Shown: piece after piece, positions 3,284 through 42,650 of the stretch
Numbering within the stretch: position 1 is the first letter of the stretch
Layout of the letters: each line of letters opens with the position of its first letter
Made by a program: the position numbers and the translations under genes
Source of the DNA: Streptomyces rochei
GTDB lineage: Bacteria; Actinomycetota; Actinomycetes; Streptomycetales; Streptomycetaceae
NCBI GenBank assembly: GCA_002155895.1
Contig: MUMD01000188.1
Coordinates: 1-52,535 of the forward strand
Direction of reading: 5' to 3'
Length of the DNA stretch: 52,535 nucleotides
The notes under the pieces: model-generated
What the model saw: the letters and a program-made list of their open reading frames with translations, nothing else
Databases searched by the model: none
Told to the model about the DNA's origin: nothing

Positions 3284-4213
3284 ATGGACAAGGACGGGGA
3301 CCTCGCCATCAAGGTCGAGACGGAGAACGGGCAGACCCACGCGTGGATCACGGCGACGCGGCTGCGCGAGCTGGTGACCCGGCTCGGCGGCCCCCACGAC
3401 CGGTTCCTGGTCGTGCAACGGATACCGGACATCCCCGATGTCTTCGCCCAGGTCTGGCACGAGGCGGGCGGTGACTACCGGCTGGAGCACCGGGCCGCCG
3501 AGGACCTGTTCTTCGGCACCGATCTCGACGACCCCGGCCTGGTCGCTGACCTGCTGACCGGCTGGGCGCGCCGACGGCCCGGCTGGGACAGCGGCGTCGC
3601 GTGGGCGCCGATCGACCCCGGCCCGCGCGAGGCGGTCCCCGAACTGCCGGACGACGTACGGGAGGCGGTCGAGCGGCGGGTGCGCGCGTTGCTGCTCTGC
3701 GGTTACGACGGCCGCCGGGCCCTGGTCGAGACGGCCGAGGACCATCTGGTCGGCGGCGAGCACGGCGAGCGGCCGGTGTCGCGGGCCCAGGCGCAGGAGG
3801 TGGTGGACCGGCTGTGGCTGGAGCGGCTGGCGGAGCAGGAGACATGGGGCGAGGGCCCCACCGACCCCGACCGGGTCGCCCGGGCCTTCGGCGCCCTGGA
3901 CGCGGCCGGCGTCACCGCCCGGGAGAACTTCACCTGCTGCCGGGGCTGCGGCACGGCGGAGATCGGCGCCGAACGGGAGGGTGCGCGGGGCTTCGTCTTC
4001 TTCCACCGGCAGAGCACCGAGGCCGCGGCCGAGGGGTACGGGCTGACGCTGCACTACGGCGGGTTCGACGGCTCGCAGGACACGACCACCGCGGTCGGCC
4101 ACGAGGTCGTGGCGGCCCTCGCGGCGGCCGGGCTGTCCACGAAGTGGGACGGCGATCCGGGCACGGCGATCACCGTCGCGCCCCTGGACTGGCGAAAGCG
4201 CCTGGTCGGATGA
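3284..4213 (+). CDS. DUF6891-type hypothetical protein
   Basis: 309-residue soluble protein. The C-terminal half carries the pattern I associate with DUF6891: ENFTCCRGCGTAEIG (tandem Cys, C-C-x2-C), GFVFFHRQSTE, LTLHYGGFDG and GHEVVAALAAAGLSTKWDG. The Cys cluster at about residues 213-217 could bind metal. The N-terminal 90 residues (MDKDGDLAIKVE, PDVFAQVWHEAGGDYRLEHR) resemble a domain often found in Streptomyces proteins of unknown role. No signal peptide or membrane segment is present. The gene stands alone after the glnII terminator. The family name is from memory and no function is known to me. Confidence 0.75.
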   Translation: MDKDGDLAIKVETENGQTHAWITATRLRELVTRLGGPHDRFLVVQRIPDIPDVFAQVWHEAGGDYRLEHRAAEDLFFGTDLDDPGLVADLLTGWARRRPGWDSGVAWAPIDPGPREAVPELPDDVREAVERRVRALLLCGYDGRRALVETAEDHLVGGEHGERPVSRAQAQEVVDRLWLERLAEQETWGEGPTDPDRVARAFGALDAAGVTARENFTCCRGCGTAEIGAEREGARGFVFFHRQSTEAAAEGYGLTLHYGGFDGSQDTTTAVGHEVVAALAAAGLSTKWDGDPGTAITVAPLDWRKRLVG

Positions 4214-6385: not shown

Positions 6386-7663
6386 ATGGACATCGAGACG
6401 AAGAGCGGCGACCGCCGGCCCGCGACCGACCGGACGAGGACCATGGCCCAGTCGGCCCTGCGGGGACTGGCGGTGGCGCTCGTCTCCCTGCCCGGCTCGG
6501 TGCTCTGCTTCTGCCTGACCCTGGTCTCCCTCGCCCTCGTCCCGATCGGGATCGGCATCGTCACCACGCCGTACGTCCTGACCGGGGTGCGGATGTTCGC
6601 GGACTGGCGGCGGGTGCTGGCCGCCGAGTGGGGCGGGGTGCGCATCCAGCGGGCGTACCGGCCGCTGCCGAAGGACGCCAACCCGTGGGCGCGCACCTTC
6701 GGGATGCTCCGCGACCCGGCGACCTGGCGGGACTTCCTCTGGCTGCCGGTCGACATGACGTTGGGCTTCGTCACCGCGCTGCTGGCCTTCGCGCTGGCCC
6801 TCTACCCGCTGGAGGGCTTCGTGATCGCCGCCGGGCTGTGGCGGGTCTGGGACGGCGGCACCTACTGGTACGGCTTCGTACCGGTCAGCGACCAGACCAC
6901 CGCGTTGTACGCCGCCGCCCTGGGCGCCGTCCTGCTGGTCGCCGCGCACTGGCTCACCCCGTTCCTGCTGCGGGCCCACTTCCGGCTCACCGACGCGATC
7001 CTCGGCTCCCACCAGATCGAGCTGGCCGAGCGGGTACGGGTGCTGACCGAGACCCGGCGGGACGCCGTCGACGCCTCCGCCGCCGAACTGCGCCGCATCG
7101 AACGCGACCTGCACGACGGGGCGCAGGCCCGGCTGGTCGCCATGGGCATGGACCTCGGCACCATCGAGGCGCTGCTGGAGAAAGACCCGGCGAAGGCCCG
7201 GGAACTGCTCGCCCGGGCCCGCCGGTCCTCCGCCGACGCGCTGACCGAGCTGCGGGAACTCGTGCGCGGCATCCACCCCCCGGTGCTGGCCGAGCGGGGC
7301 CTGGGGGACGCCGTGCGGGCCCTGGCGCTGCGGCTGCCCCTCCCCGTGGAGACCGACGTGGATCTGCCCGGCCGCGCGGACGCGCCCGTGGAGTCCGCCG
7401 CGTACTTCGCGGTCAGCGAGATTCTCACCAACGCCGTGAAGCACTCGGGCGCCGAGCGGATCTGGATCGACCTGCACCACGCCGACGGCCGGCTGCGCGT
7501 GTCCGTGACCGACGACGGCAAGGGCGGTGCGGTGATCGGTGCGGGGTCCGGGCTGGCCGGGGTGGAGCGGCGACTGGGTACATTCGACGGCGTCCTGGCC
7601 GTCAGCTCGCCCGCGGGCGGCCCCACCATGGTCACCGTGGAGATCCCTTGCGCGTTGTCCTAG
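6386..7663 (+). CDS. NarL-family sensor histidine kinase
   Basis: 425 residues. The N-terminal ~200 residues hold about four membrane segments in two pairs (30-70, 130-190) and form a DUF-type membrane sensor module seen in actinobacterial kinases. The HisKA_3 dimerisation box ELRRIERDLHDGAQARL places the phosphoacceptor at His243. The HATPase domain has FAVSEILTNAVKHS (N box), VTDDGKGG (D/G1 box) and GSGLAGVERRL (G2). It presumably phosphorylates the regulator encoded from 7648. The signal is unknown. ATG at 6386 has only a weak ribosome site. The 66-bp palindrome ends 76 bases upstream, so this gene's promoter lies beside or within that element. Confidence 0.9.
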   Translation: MDIETKSGDRRPATDRTRTMAQSALRGLAVALVSLPGSVLCFCLTLVSLALVPIGIGIVTTPYVLTGVRMFADWRRVLAAEWGGVRIQRAYRPLPKDANPWARTFGMLRDPATWRDFLWLPVDMTLGFVTALLAFALALYPLEGFVIAAGLWRVWDGGTYWYGFVPVSDQTTALYAAALGAVLLVAAHWLTPFLLRAHFRLTDAILGSHQIELAERVRVLTETRRDAVDASAAELRRIERDLHDGAQARLVAMGMDLGTIEALLEKDPAKARELLARARRSSADALTELRELVRGIHPPVLAERGLGDAVRALALRLPLPVETDVDLPGRADAPVESAAYFAVSEILTNAVKHSGAERIWIDLHHADGRLRVSVTDDGKGGAVIGAGSGLAGVERRLGTFDGVLAVSSPAGGPTMVTVEIPCALS

Positions 7664-39252: not shown

Positions 39253-39539
39253 GGGGTGTGCCCTTCTGGGGAAACGTCAACGGAAACGGAGCTGTGAGGT
39301 TCGCTGATCGTAATGCGGGAGGGGCCGTCGTTCGTAGGGAGATCACAGGATCGGTCCCGGCCGGATCCCCGGAATGGCCCGATCGAACAGGTGGCCTCTA
39401 CGCTGCGGGGAGGGCCGGTGGGCCGATCGAGGTCCGCAACGCGTACGAAACCGTGCTGTGGTGTGATGCTCGGGTGCGGGGCCGCCTCCCGCCGTACCGG
39501 AGACAGGCGGCCTGACCAGCGAGGATGGGGAAGCGGAAG
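39253..39539 (+). other. glnA2 upstream region without a supported gene
   Basis: This 287-nt divergent intergenic stretch holds the promoters of the DUF3105 gene and glnA2. Two GGAAAC copies 12 bp apart (39270, 39282) and GTGAG at 39294 lie near the left end. They do not meet the 6-nt spacing of a GlnR box. Short ORFs on both strands lack ribosome sites. Confidence 0.5.
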
Positions 39540-40901
39540 ATGGACAAGCAGCAGGAGTTCGTGATCCGGACGCTGGAGGAGCGCGACATCCGGTTCGTAC
39601 GCCTGTGGTTCACGGACGTGCTGGGCTTCCTGAAGTCCGTCGCCGTGGCCCCGGCCGAGCTGGAGCAGGCCTTCGACGAGGGCATCGGCTTCGACGGCTC
39701 GGCGATCGAGGGTTTCGCCCGGGTCTACGAGTCCGACATGATCGCCAAGCCGGACCCCTCCACCTTCCAGGTCCTGCCCTGGCGCGCGGAGGCCCCCGGC
39801 ACGGCCCGCATGTTCTGCGACATCCTGATGCCGGACGGCTCCCCGTCCTTCGCGGACCCGCGCTACGTCCTCAAGCGCGCCCTGGCCCGCACCTCGGACC
39901 TGGGTTTCACCTTCTACACCCACCCCGAGATCGAGTTCTTCCTCCTCAAGGACAAGCCGGTCGACGGCACGGTCCCCACCCCCGCCGACAACTCCGGGTA
40001 CTTCGACCACACCCCGCAGAACATCGGCATGGACTTCCGCCGCCAGGCGATCACCATGCTGGAGTCGATGGGCATCTCGGTGGAGTTCTCCCACCACGAG
40101 GGCGCCCCGGGCCAGCAGGAGATCGACCTGCGCTACGCGGACGCGCTCTCCACGGCCGACAACATCATGACCTTCCGTCTGGTCATGAAGCAGGTGGCCC
40201 TCGAACAGGGCCTCCAGGCCACCTTCATGCCGAAACCGTTCTCGGAGTACCCCGGCTCGGGCATGCACTCCCACCTGTCCCTCTTCGAGGGCGACCGCAA
40301 CGCGTTCTACGAGTCCGGCGCCGAGTACCAGCTCTCCAAGGTCGGCCGCTCCTTCATCGCGGGCCTGCTGCGGCACGCGGCGGAGATCTCGGCGGTCACC
40401 AACCAGTGGGTGAACTCCTACAAGCGCATCTGGGGCGGCACCGAGCGCACGGCGGGCGCCGGCGGCGAGGCCCCCTCCTACATCTGCTGGGGCCACAACA
40501 ACCGCTCGGCCCTGGTCCGGGTCCCCATGTACAAGCCCGGCAAGACCGGCTCGGCCCGCGTCGAGGTCCGCTCCATCGACTCCGGCGCCAACCCGTACCT
40601 GACCTACGCCGTCCTCCTGGCCGCCGGCCTCAAGGGCATCGAGGAGGGCTACGAACTCCCGCCGGGCGCCGAGGACGACGTCTGGGCCCTCTCCGACTCG
40701 GAGCGGCGCGCGCTGGGCATCGAACCCCTCCCCCAGAACCTGGGCGAGGCCCTGGCCCTGATGGAACGCAGCGACCTGGTCGCCGAGACCCTCGGCGAGC
40801 ACGTCTTCGACTTCTTCCTCCGCAACAAGCGGCAGGAGTGGGAGGAGTACCGGTCGCAGGTGACGGCGTTCGAGCTGAGGAAGTCGCTGCCGGTGCTGTA
40901 G
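39540..40901 (+). CDS. glnA2: Glutamine synthetase-like enzyme GlnA2 (gamma-glutamylpolyamine synthetase)
   Basis: 453 residues with the GS-I fold. Motifs: GIGFDGSAIEGF (~44-55), HPEIEFFL, SHHEGAPGQQEIDLRY (~184-199), MPKPFSEYPGSGMHSHLSLF (~225-244), WGHNNRSALVRVP (~317-329) and RSIDSGANPYL. Where GlnA has the adenylylated NLYDLPP loop, this protein has EGYELPPGAED, which keeps a Tyr in an altered context. It closely matches my memory of S. coelicolor GlnA2 (SCO2241), reported to glutamylate polyamines rather than ammonia; the first five codons from an ATG at 39525 are thought to be untranslated. A terminator follows at 40923. Confidence 0.88.
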   Translation: MDKQQEFVIRTLEERDIRFVRLWFTDVLGFLKSVAVAPAELEQAFDEGIGFDGSAIEGFARVYESDMIAKPDPSTFQVLPWRAEAPGTARMFCDILMPDGSPSFADPRYVLKRALARTSDLGFTFYTHPEIEFFLLKDKPVDGTVPTPADNSGYFDHTPQNIGMDFRRQAITMLESMGISVEFSHHEGAPGQQEIDLRYADALSTADNIMTFRLVMKQVALEQGLQATFMPKPFSEYPGSGMHSHLSLFEGDRNAFYESGAEYQLSKVGRSFIAGLLRHAAEISAVTNQWVNSYKRIWGGTERTAGAGGEAPSYICWGHNNRSALVRVPMYKPGKTGSARVEVRSIDSGANPYLTYAVLLAAGLKGIEEGYELPPGAEDDVWALSDSERRALGIEPLPQNLGEALALMERSDLVAETLGEHVFDFFLRNKRQEWEEYRSQVTAFELRKSLPVL

Positions 40902-40950: not shown

Positions 40951-41307
40951 TGCGTCGTGGATGCCGAACATTCCTGGGACCTGCACACCTTTCATCACAC
41001 GGTCGCACGGCGGGGGCGTGGCGGCGGCGTCCGGGCAGACCGGACGCCTCGGAGCCCCGGAGAAAGCCCGGAGAAGGGCCGGTTACCGGCGGGTAGCGTG
41101 AAGAGGCGGGCTCTTTCCCCGACGGTACGCACACACAGATGGACGCGGGTGCGGACCCTCAAGGGCGAGCGCTGGGCCGGTCGTTCGGCACCGTGCTTGG
41201 ATCAGTGCGCGGCACGCCGGTGACCGGCTCCGGGCTTCCCCGACTCCGTACGCCGGGCGGGCGTGCCTCACCGCTCCGATTCCCCCGTACGAAAGGCAGG
41301 ACCTGTC
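40951..41307 (+). other. Intergenic stretch before the double-glycine peptide gene
   Basis: 357 nt without a convincing gene. ORFs of up to 88 codons exist on both strands but have no ribosome site, no family motif and unbiased third positions. The right part should contain the promoter for the peptide gene at 41308. No tRNA-like fold or repeat array was noticed. Confidence 0.5.
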
Positions 41308-41544
41308 ATGAACCTCGTCCCCCAGGTCGAAACGGCCGAGATCTCCGACGCGGACCTGGACCAGGTGTCCGGCGGCGCCATCGTCGGCATCGACGCCGGT
41401 GCGGCCGTCATATCCGCCGGTGGTGCGGTCGGCGCCGGCTTCCACGCGGAGGCCGGCCCCTTCTCGCTCACGGCCGGTCTGGGCGCCTCGGCGGCCTTCG
41501 GCGGCGCCTCGGCCCAGGGCCAGGCCCACACGACCATGGTCTGA
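41308..41544 (+). CDS. Double-glycine leader peptide (bacteriocin/RiPP-precursor-like), orphan
   Basis: 78 residues. The first 23 are a typical double-glycine leader ending EISDADLDQVSGG, with spaced acidic and hydrophobic residues as in class II bacteriocin and lanthipeptide precursors cut by C39 peptidases. The 55-residue remainder begins AIVGIDAGAAVISAGG and is rich in Gly, Ala and Ser. It has no Cys, Lys, Arg, Trp or Tyr, so it is neither a lanthipeptide core nor a cationic bacteriocin. An AGGCAGGA ribosome site precedes ATG by seven bases. No C39 exporter, modifying enzyme or immunity gene is adjacent. A secreted structural or signalling peptide is possible. Confidence 0.7.
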   Translation: MNLVPQVETAEISDADLDQVSGGAIVGIDAGAAVISAGGAVGAGFHAEAGPFSLTAGLGASAAFGGASAQGQAHTTMV

Positions 41545-41565
41545 GCGGCGCGCCTGCCCTGAGCC

Positions 41566-41595
41566 TGAGCCCCGGACCACCGTGTCCGGGGCTCA
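41566..41595. terminator. Bidirectional terminator between the peptide gene and DUF397 gene
   Basis: Perfect 12-bp arms TGAGCCCCGGAC / GTCCGGGGCTCA around a 6-nt loop. Its right arm contains the complement of the DUF397 stop codon (41593-41595). Confidence 0.8.
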
Positions 41596-41802
41596 CGCCT
41601 TGCCGACGCCGGCCACGAACGCCGTCCACGAGGCCGGGGGCACGGTGAGACGGGGGCCGTCCGGCCGCTTGGAGTCGCGGACGTGGATGGTGGCGGGGGT
41701 TATGGCGACCTCGACGCAGTCGCTGGGATTGCTGGTATCGCTGTAGCTGCTCTTGAACCAGGCCAGGTCGGCGAGGTGTCCGGATGTGTCCTTACGGCTC
41801 AT
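41593..41802 (-). CDS. DUF397 small protein (WhiJ-pair partner)
   Basis: 69 residues. The DUF397 signature is clear: LADLAWFKSSYSDTSNPSDCVEVA (W-x-K-S-S-x-S, then N-x-x-x-C-V-E-V), IHVRDSKRPDGPRLTV and SWTAFVAGV. These small proteins are encoded next to XRE regulators of the WhiJ type in Streptomyces, in large paralogous sets tied to development and antibiotic control, with antitoxin-like or antagonist roles suggested. The start overlaps the XRE gene's stop by four bases (ATGA), so the two are translationally coupled. Confidence 0.9.
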   Translation of the reverse strand: MSRKDTSGHLADLAWFKSSYSDTSNPSDCVEVAITPATIHVRDSKRPDGPRLTVPPASWTAFVAGVGKA

Positions 41803-42650
41803 GTCTCCCCCAGCAGTTGTTCGATGAAGGCCACTGACTCCCGGGCGGGCAGAGCCTCGGCCCGGATACTGCCATAGCGCAGTTCGAGGATGCGCAACTG
41901 CCGGGGGTCCGTGACCGGTCGACCACCGAACTCGTCGTCCGCCCGCCCGACCGCCGTGCCGTCCTCGAATTTGAGCACCTGCATCCGCCCGCCTCCCGGG
42001 TGGTCACCGCGGGACGTCGGCATCACCTGGATCTCCACGTGGCGCAATCGCCCGACTTCCAATAGGTGTTCGAGCTGCCGACGCAGAACCATCATGCCTC
42101 CGACAGGACGTCTGAGAGTCGCCTCCTCCTGGACGAAGCTGAGTTCTGGGGCCGGGACCCGTTCGAGCATCGCCTTGCGGCCCATGCGGGCGGCAACGGC
42201 GTTCTCCACCTCGTCCTCGGTGAGGGCCGGCCGTCGCCTGCCGAGGAGTGCGCGTGCGTACTCCTCGGTCTGGAGCAGCCCGTGCAGGCTGTAGCTGCCG
42301 TAGGAGAGCGATTCGACCGCCCGGGACTCCAACTTCGCCAGGTCCCGCACCTGCTTGGGATACCGGACCTTCTTCACGTCCTCCCAGGTGGCGGCGATGA
42401 GTCCGCCCGCCTTCAGGACCTCGTCGGCCCGTTCCAGGTACTCCCGCCGAGGAATCCGCTTCCCGCCCTCGACCTTGTAGACCAGGTCCTCCCCGTACCC
42501 CACCGCCGTCCCGAACTCGGCCGCCCGCATCCCGACCGCCTCGCGCCGCAGCTTCAGCTGCCGCCCGACGGTGGCGATGACCGCCACACCCCACTCGTCG
42601 TCCGGGTCGACCTCCCAACCCGGCTCGTCCGTCCCGCCGTTCACCGACAT
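41799..42650 (-). CDS. XRE-family regulator with DUF5753 domain (WhiJ-like)
   Basis: 283 residues. The helix-turn-helix lies at about 25-80 (IATVGRQLKLRREAVGMRAAEFGTAVGYGEDLVYKVEGGKRIPRREYL). The DUF5753 domain occupies ~95-283: RAVESLSYGSYSLHGLLQTEEYARALL, RQLEHLLEVGRLRHVEIQVMP and a C-terminal VAFIEQLLGE. Paired with DUF397 it forms the standard Streptomyces WhiJ-type locus; a separate small AbaA-like third member is not seen, although the double-glycine peptide lies beyond the terminator. No nearby target is evident. Confidence 0.9.
   Translation of the reverse strand: MSVNGGTDEPGWEVDPDDEWGVAVIATVGRQLKLRREAVGMRAAEFGTAVGYGEDLVYKVEGGKRIPRREYLERADEVLKAGGLIAATWEDVKKVRYPKQVRDLAKLESRAVESLSYGSYSLHGLLQTEEYARALLGRRRPALTEDEVENAVAARMGRKAMLERVPAPELSFVQEEATLRRPVGGMMVLRRQLEHLLEVGRLRHVEIQVMPTSRGDHPGGGRMQVLKFEDGTAVGRADDEFGGRPVTDPRQLRILELRYGSIRAEALPARESVAFIEQLLGET

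Follow-up and report, generated by a model that had tools for sequence, protein, structure and literature searches.

The window (the whole 52,535-nt stretch analysed here, contig MUMD01000188.1 of Streptomyces rochei) contains at 41308–41544, on the forward strand, an open reading frame of 78 codons (78 aa) with its ATG at 41308 and its stop codon at 41542–41544, which, by comparison with related sequences, is a real gene, far beyond chance. Residues 1–23 (MNLVPQVETAEISDADLDQVSGG; 41308–41376, +) form a double-glycine leader, assigned with leader profile A2 and by identity at 19 of 23 residues to the leader of a peptide encoded beside an exporter on another contig (see below). Gly −1, Gly −2, Val −4, Leu −7 and Ile −12 relative to the cleavage site correspond to the C39 pattern, and the leader matched profile A2, built from 20 leaders of which it is itself one, with 61.1 bits (E = 1.2e-15 in its own genome), in line with the initial annotation of a leader of the type cut by C39 exporters. 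The remaining 55 residues (24–78; 41377–41541, +) make up the core and predicted mature peptide, delineated from composition, mass and 28 aligned relatives. As described initially, this core is devoid of Cys, Lys and Arg and rich in Gly, Ala and Ser (together 58%), but it is not uncharged, since it has one Asp and one Glu, besides two His; it also contains four Ser and three Thr. Its GRAVY is 0.82, its pI 5.15 and its monoisotopic mass, if unmodified, 4895.43 ([M+2H]2+, 2448.72). The core lacks the Cys that a class II lanthipeptide would need for thioether rings and, with one Asp, one Glu and no Lys or Arg, the net positive charge of a cationic class II bacteriocin.

Searches with the window peptide gave no match in Pfam and two weak hits in NCBIfam, both below cut-off, to pheromone VP1 (E = 0.032) and plantaricin C (E = 0.14). 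None of the 29 window-type members matched Pfam at E 0.01, and a profile of the window family found no match among Protein Data Bank sequences.

The gene has its own ribosome-binding site, as had been noted, with AAAGGCAGG read from the sequence at 41292–41300 (+), and a GAAGGGAAG-like sequence occupies the same position before many family genes. Downstream, folding of 41545–41625 (81 nt, −43.2 kcal/mol, z = −3.5) gave a terminator-like stem-loop at 41566–41595 (+) with a 12-bp stem (arms 41566–41577 and 41584–41595) and a 6-nt loop. A T-run is absent, and the last bases of the stem-loop are the stop codon of the next gene. The latter encodes a DUF397 protein (41593–41802, −; PF04149, 82.5 bits) and adjoins the gene for a WhiJ-like XRE/DUF5753 regulator (41799–42650, −; PF19054, 158.8 bits; PF13560, 42.4 bits). 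Both are neighbours that are probably not part of the peptide system and both run toward the peptide gene, tail to tail with it, and not back to back as stated originally. Upstream, the gene at 39525–40901 (+), followed by tblastn in relatives, is taken from its sequence to be glutamine-synthetase-like.

Spread and conservation of the leader family

The peptide was initially considered an orphan. With the leader profile (E 0.01), however, 107 of 150 sampled genomes of its own genus yielded matches and, by this comparison, the window gene is not an orphan family. The matches were confined to that genus both in an order sample (64 of 99 genomes; one of five genera), where the 15 listed genomes of other genera gave no leader match, and in a class-wide sample (19 of 246 genomes; one of 103 genera). 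Using the window peptide alone as query, a search independent of profile A2, we found matches in 28 of 100 relatives, all of one genus and mostly via the leader. A scan of named genomes yielded at least 244 relatives, the best 80 of which are loci L171–L250; one of these (L208), recorded as Actinacidiphila soli, corresponds to Streptomyces soli in NCBI taxonomy. Window-type or similar cores, 43–91% identical to the window peptide, occur in 28 of these loci (L171–L199 without L197), and most of the others have the exporter-linked core type. Absence of Arg and Cys does not hold throughout the family, as 11 of 23 window-type cores have one Arg and five have one Cys, with Lys in none.

The leader is the most conserved part, and all 23 window-type genes aligned could be aligned as proteins up to the C-terminus; homologues that might have been lacking, or have drifted out of frame, were thus present with leader and frame preserved, gaps being in frame by construction because proteins were aligned. 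Fourteen positions are invariant among 29 aligned sequences, four of them in the core. For the 23 genes, pooled dN and dS were 0.089 and 0.329 in the leader and 0.307 and 0.370 in the core, whereas the window core compared with those of L172 and L174 gave a dN of 0.05 and a dS of 0.14 and 0.26 respectively. The leader is therefore under strong constraint and the core weakly constrained over the whole set but more tightly against the closest relatives; GC-rich third positions probably lower dS. In L237 (from position 4001; Streptomyces aureocirculatus) the peptide frame continues into seemingly out-of-frame sequence of the exporter operon, and it looks as if the intervening stretch had been deleted or misassembled.

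A single NHLM-type exporter and its co-occurrence with the leader

Exactly one match above cut-off to the C39 peptidase domain (PF03412, E = 3e-36) was found in the 7.68-Mb genome, on contig C64, the window gene being on contig C99. The C64 operon encodes, in order, a 71-residue peptide, an HlyD-like protein, a C39-ABC protein (TIGR03796, 1028.8 bits; cut-off 853.3) and a second ABC protein (TIGR03797, 902.4 bits; cut-off 709.4), and is of the NHLM type, with the HlyD-like protein just under the cut-off for TIGR03794 (143.5 versus 156.2 bits). The same peptide-HlyD-C39-ABC-ABC order was present in 11 of 19 other fetched loci, which had been chosen around leader matches. The gene after the C64 operon is, by sequence, presumably exopolyphosphatase-like, and a gene for an alpha-lytic-type protease (L038:10336–11727) is divergent from the exporter-linked peptide. 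A close relative of the protease (62–79% identity) is near the peptide in seven of the 11 other exporter loci, L045 having a weak match elsewhere; the protease may process or control secreted peptides. One locus has tandem leader peptides upstream of one exporter (L139:6645–6869 and 7282–7491), with the promoter element described below absent at both.

Beyond the leader, the window core and the linked core yielded no local alignment at E 100 or better, and in a profile-profile comparison of the two families only residues 1–26 aligned (E = 2.1e-18), indicating that the leader is what both share. Structure prediction gave four strands (28–37, 40–49, 52–63 and 66–77) for the window family (29 sequences; mean pLDDT 51.7, pTM 0.26) and helices for the linked family (25 sequences; mean pLDDT 58.9, pTM 0.22), both models being poor and offering hints only.

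TIGR03796 exceeded its cut-off in 109 of the same 150 genomes, with leader and exporter together in 105, leader only in two (G001, G158), exporter only in four (G028, G038, G117, G159) and neither in 39 (Fisher p = 6e-29, a significance overstated because the genomes are related). Among the exceptions, G001 is 79% complete and has its leader match near a contig end, the exporter in G158 is in two overlapping pieces, and in G117 the peptide next to the exporter bears a weaker leader (L140, 16.7 bits). As to physical linkage, 94 of the 150 leader matches listed are within 5 kb of an exporter and 56 are not; among the matches listed, 47 genomes have unlinked ones and 42 have both kinds. The 56 unlinked places include G002 and G120, with linked-type cores that are probably apart from the exporter only through contig breaks, and G158, with a linked-type start.

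A promoter-like element shared with the exporter operon

Upstream of the window gene, at 41173–41203 (+), a pattern search of the genome located a promoter-like element, TGG-N17-GTGCTTGGATC, that is shared with the NHLM exporter operon. The pattern TGGN{16,18}GTGCTTNSATC has exactly two matches in the 7.68 Mb, this one and that before the exporter operon (G000:C64:9884–9914), and none with the reversed pattern as control. The window copy (GTGCTTGGATC) is one base off the commonest form. Relaxing the search to at most two mismatches with a fixed 17-base spacer gave four sites in the genome versus five in the reversed control: those of the exporter operon and the window gene (zero and one mismatch) and two others, at two mismatches, without a family gene.

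In the 150 genomes, 101 had the element, compared to 14 matches in all for the reversed control. Among the 150 places listed, 104 were less than 320 bp before a leader match and 46 had no leader match downstream; of 18 of the latter that we inspected, four precede a peptide with a divergent leader, seven a 29-codon ORF and seven nothing recognisable. Counted by gene, the element precedes 36 of 56 unlinked family genes (40 in a looser form; 16 lack even this) and 18 of 24 linked peptide genes (21 loose), versus none of 446 other genes in the same loci (one loose). In a survey of 160 upstream stretches the element lies between about 50 and 160 bp from the start codon; as some of these stretches are from the same genome and hence redundant, the 56/24/446 count is the cleaner. 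Within the word used for the search, base preferences are necessarily high. TGC-TTTGAT would fit an extended −10 box, and the element is thus most simply a dedicated promoter, although its sharing could partly reflect common descent.

In six loci (L283:4626–4715 (+), L285, L286, L287, L288 and L289) five bases separate the element from the ATG of a conserved ORF of 29 codons, of the METTGPA.TVLLDPFWVSRRADQFDQVCC type with a Cys near the C-terminus, and a seventh case, read by eye in L284, is followed by a 2OG-Fe(II) oxygenase gene (PF03171, PF14226). This has the appearance of a further small-peptide locus, whose transcript may be leaderless. Four exporter-region peptides (L290, L291, L292 and L295) have the same element with clearly shorter leaders (MRNDIETREIADTELDAVSGG type, or MSFVPTQEIADSELDNIAGG), the element being kept while the leader diverges.

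Probable export in trans and relation to known systems

The single C39 match elsewhere in the genome, the near-identical leader beside it, the co-occurrence of leader and exporter and the shared rare element point to the window gene product as a co-expressed substrate of the distant NHLM exporter, exported and cleaved in trans after Gly23. We put the probability of this reading, which agrees with the initial proposal of an exported peptide using an unlinked exporter and is drawn from sequence comparison, at roughly 80%. The shared promoter would switch on the window gene and the exporter operon together; the double-glycine leader, judging from its identity to the linked one, the uniqueness of the C39 match and the co-occurrence, would direct the precursor to the NHLM system on the other contig; and the C39 domain would cut after Gly23 during membrane crossing to release a 55-residue, hydrophobic, net-acidic peptide. 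Since no modification enzyme was seen in the C64 exporter operon or beside the window gene, the mature peptide is probably unmodified.

S. coelicolor SCO0753 is apparently the exporter-linked member, an orthology based on gene order and on description. In PMC6629963, SCO0753 is a 77-residue, hydrophobic, Cys-free peptide whose gene lies upstream of SCO0754 (HlyD homologue) and of the ABC components SCO0755 and SCO0756; SCO0757 encodes an exopolyphosphatase, and the gene order is that of the C64 operon, including the exopolyphosphatase-like gene after it. According to the same paper, no gene was more overexpressed than SCO0753 with the activating Sco5282-D125G allele (log2 6.3; 8.1 by qRT-PCR); like the secretion genes, it is almost silent in the null mutant. 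The allele is one of a two-component system that alters mycelial clumping, and the authors suggested export of SCO0753 by SCO0754–0756 and a possible effect at the hyphal surface. Elsewhere, SCO0753 is up-regulated in an aor1 mutant (PMC5733086), sco0756 is among up-regulated efflux genes (PMC5882110) and SCO0756 is listed under bacteriocin (PMC6414726); a Streptomyces 'type A2 lantipeptide' whose region includes a Peptidase_C39 gene as well (PMC13047742) is possibly, from its description, a linked member.

Like SCO0753-type NHLM-exported peptides, the window gene has the leader, the NHLM exporter of its genome and the promoter element, but, where SCO0753 sits beside its exporter genes, the window gene is found on a different contig, not directly upstream of HlyD-like/ABC genes, and has an unrelated Gly/Ala-rich core, which makes it an unlinked paralogue. 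The suggestion of a new class was, accordingly, only partly right, as the linked member, apparently SCO0753, had already been proposed to be secreted (PMC6629963). No description of unlinked paralogues or of the shared promoter was found in the accessible literature on SCO0753–0756, NHLP/NHLM or double-glycine leaders in Streptomyces, a body of sources that subscription journals mostly fall outside.

The exporter families go back to Haft et al. (2010; PMC2887384), who defined them and noted that precursors can be far from the export genes. The NHLP/N11P precursors described there resemble the window gene in their TIGR03794/03796/03797 exporters, Gly-Gly leaders, variable cores and possible distance from these exporters, but their leaders average 83 (NHLP) or 70 (N11P) residues compared to 23 in the window, and the window peptide, with no Pfam hit and no modification enzyme seen, has no NCBIfam hit to the NHLP/N11P models. 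Cyanobacterial double-glycine bacteriocin precursors (PMC3140520) are alike in having a double-glycine leader, a C39-domain ABC exporter, and HlyD and a second ABC protein in a three-gene transport cluster. To the CTB family (NF038167), seven of 25 linked peptides matched weakly (best E = 0.025), that of the genome itself with 13.6 bits against a cut-off of 32, and the window peptide had no hit.

Possible roles of the released peptide

For the mature peptide we tentatively favour, at somewhat less than even odds, a role at the hyphal surface or in the matrix, drawn from the reported overexpression of SCO0753 with the activating allele of the clumping-altering two-component system and from the low-confidence beta prediction for the window core; a signal appears rather improbable.

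Less likely than a surface or matrix role, though it deserves serious weighing, is that the peptide released by the same exporter is an unmodified, bacteriocin-like antimicrobial, varied cores being the usual sign of conflict-driven peptides. The unlinked peptides do show several core types behind one leader, the leader being conserved and the core fast-changing, and TIGR03796 and TIGR03797 are named as bacteriocin exporters. Weak NCBIfam hits, below cut-off, also point this way, to plantaricin C for the window peptide and to CTB, plantaricin C, TIGR01847 and lactococcin G-beta for some linked ones, but the 12 families matched by the 25 linked-type members at E up to 0.1 also include unrelated models such as ATP synthase alpha, as well as FapA amyloid chaperones, and all hits of the genome's own linked peptide are below cut-off. 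Against an antimicrobial, furthermore, Lys is absent, Arg scarce and the core net acidic, and the linked core is well conserved. Neither the exporter operon nor the vicinity of the window gene showed a small immunity-type gene, though such genes are hard to recognise and short ones are missed by the caller, a home-made GC-by-codon-position rule applied to the fetched loci that misses the window peptide as well.

Appreciably less probable than an antimicrobial is a RiPP precursor with core modifications, for example at Ser or Thr, that are introduced before export by an enzyme whose gene is elsewhere. Modified peptides are often the substrates of NHLM exporters (PMC2887384). The core offers four Ser and three Thr, and in the scan at E up to 0.1 four of 25 linked members matched TIGR04497 (best E = 0.0062) and one TigB (E = 0.018); yet the core is without Cys and no modification enzyme lies between peptide and exporter in the operon of this genome. 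In prochlorosins many precursors with one leader and varied cores are served in trans by one system that depends on a lanthionine synthetase. Here, none of the called genes near the exporter peptide or near the window gene was recognised as encoding a LanM-type synthetase.

Genomic setting of the unlinked genes

We searched 31 loci (L171–L199, L092 and L102) using eight window neighbours as queries; at least one was matched in nine loci and none in the remaining 22. In L171, L172, L173 and L189 (4/31 loci; tblastn 99%, 458/458 aa) the glutamine-synthetase-like gene is found upstream of the peptide, and DUF397/XRE genes or a gene for an MFS protein lie downstream in several loci. Window-like unlinked peptides in L039, L096, L099 and L110 are in a neighbourhood unlike that of the window, with genes that, by sequence, we take to be WXG-like and Tad-pilus-like.

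It could be argued that the unlinked copies are by-products in which a duplicated leader and promoter precede a drifting, non-functional tail, as the pooled core dN/dS of about 0.83 and the lack of any window neighbours within 8.2 kb of L174, whose protein is 91% identical, would allow. We consider this very improbable, given that all 23 genes can be aligned as proteins to a conserved C-terminus, that four of the 14 invariant positions are in the core, that core dN is well below dS against the closest relatives, that the gene keeps its place between the glutamine-synthetase-like and MFS genes in L171, L172 and L173, and that the element is kept although its distance to the start codon varies.

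The least credible alternative, that the peptide belongs to the adjacent DUF397/XRE pair, for example as its signal or target, draws on the presence of the pair near the gene in the window, L092, L102, L172, L173 and L176 and of DUF397 alone in L177 (4.5 kb covered), but there is no match to the pair within 8.2 kb in L171 and only XRE fragments in L175 and L189, none of the eight neighbours was matched in 22 of the 31 loci that carry window-type or similar peptides, such pairs are common (four strong and one short further match in this genome) and in the window the search located no element ahead of the pair, so the pair is probably a bystander.

Implications

Returning to the reading of the window gene product as a substrate exported in trans, we would suggest, more speculatively, that promoter, ribosome-binding site and 23-residue leader form a portable cassette that places unrelated cores under one NHLM exporter, creating a scattered, co-secreted regulon in which the linked core is probably helical and conserved and the scattered cores are beta-rich and possibly amyloid-like on the hyphal surface; the odds are, in our view, against this extended form. 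Cluster-based mining, which looks for precursors beside export or modification genes, would miss genes of this kind, and leader and promoter element offer two independent ways to find what one exporter transports throughout the genus. If export in trans is true, deleting a single exporter should stop several peptides from being secreted simultaneously. If, moreover, hyphal clumping involves the linked peptide, as work on SCO5282/SCO5283 suggests, its scattered paralogues would be candidate mycelial-surface factors in an industrially important genus.
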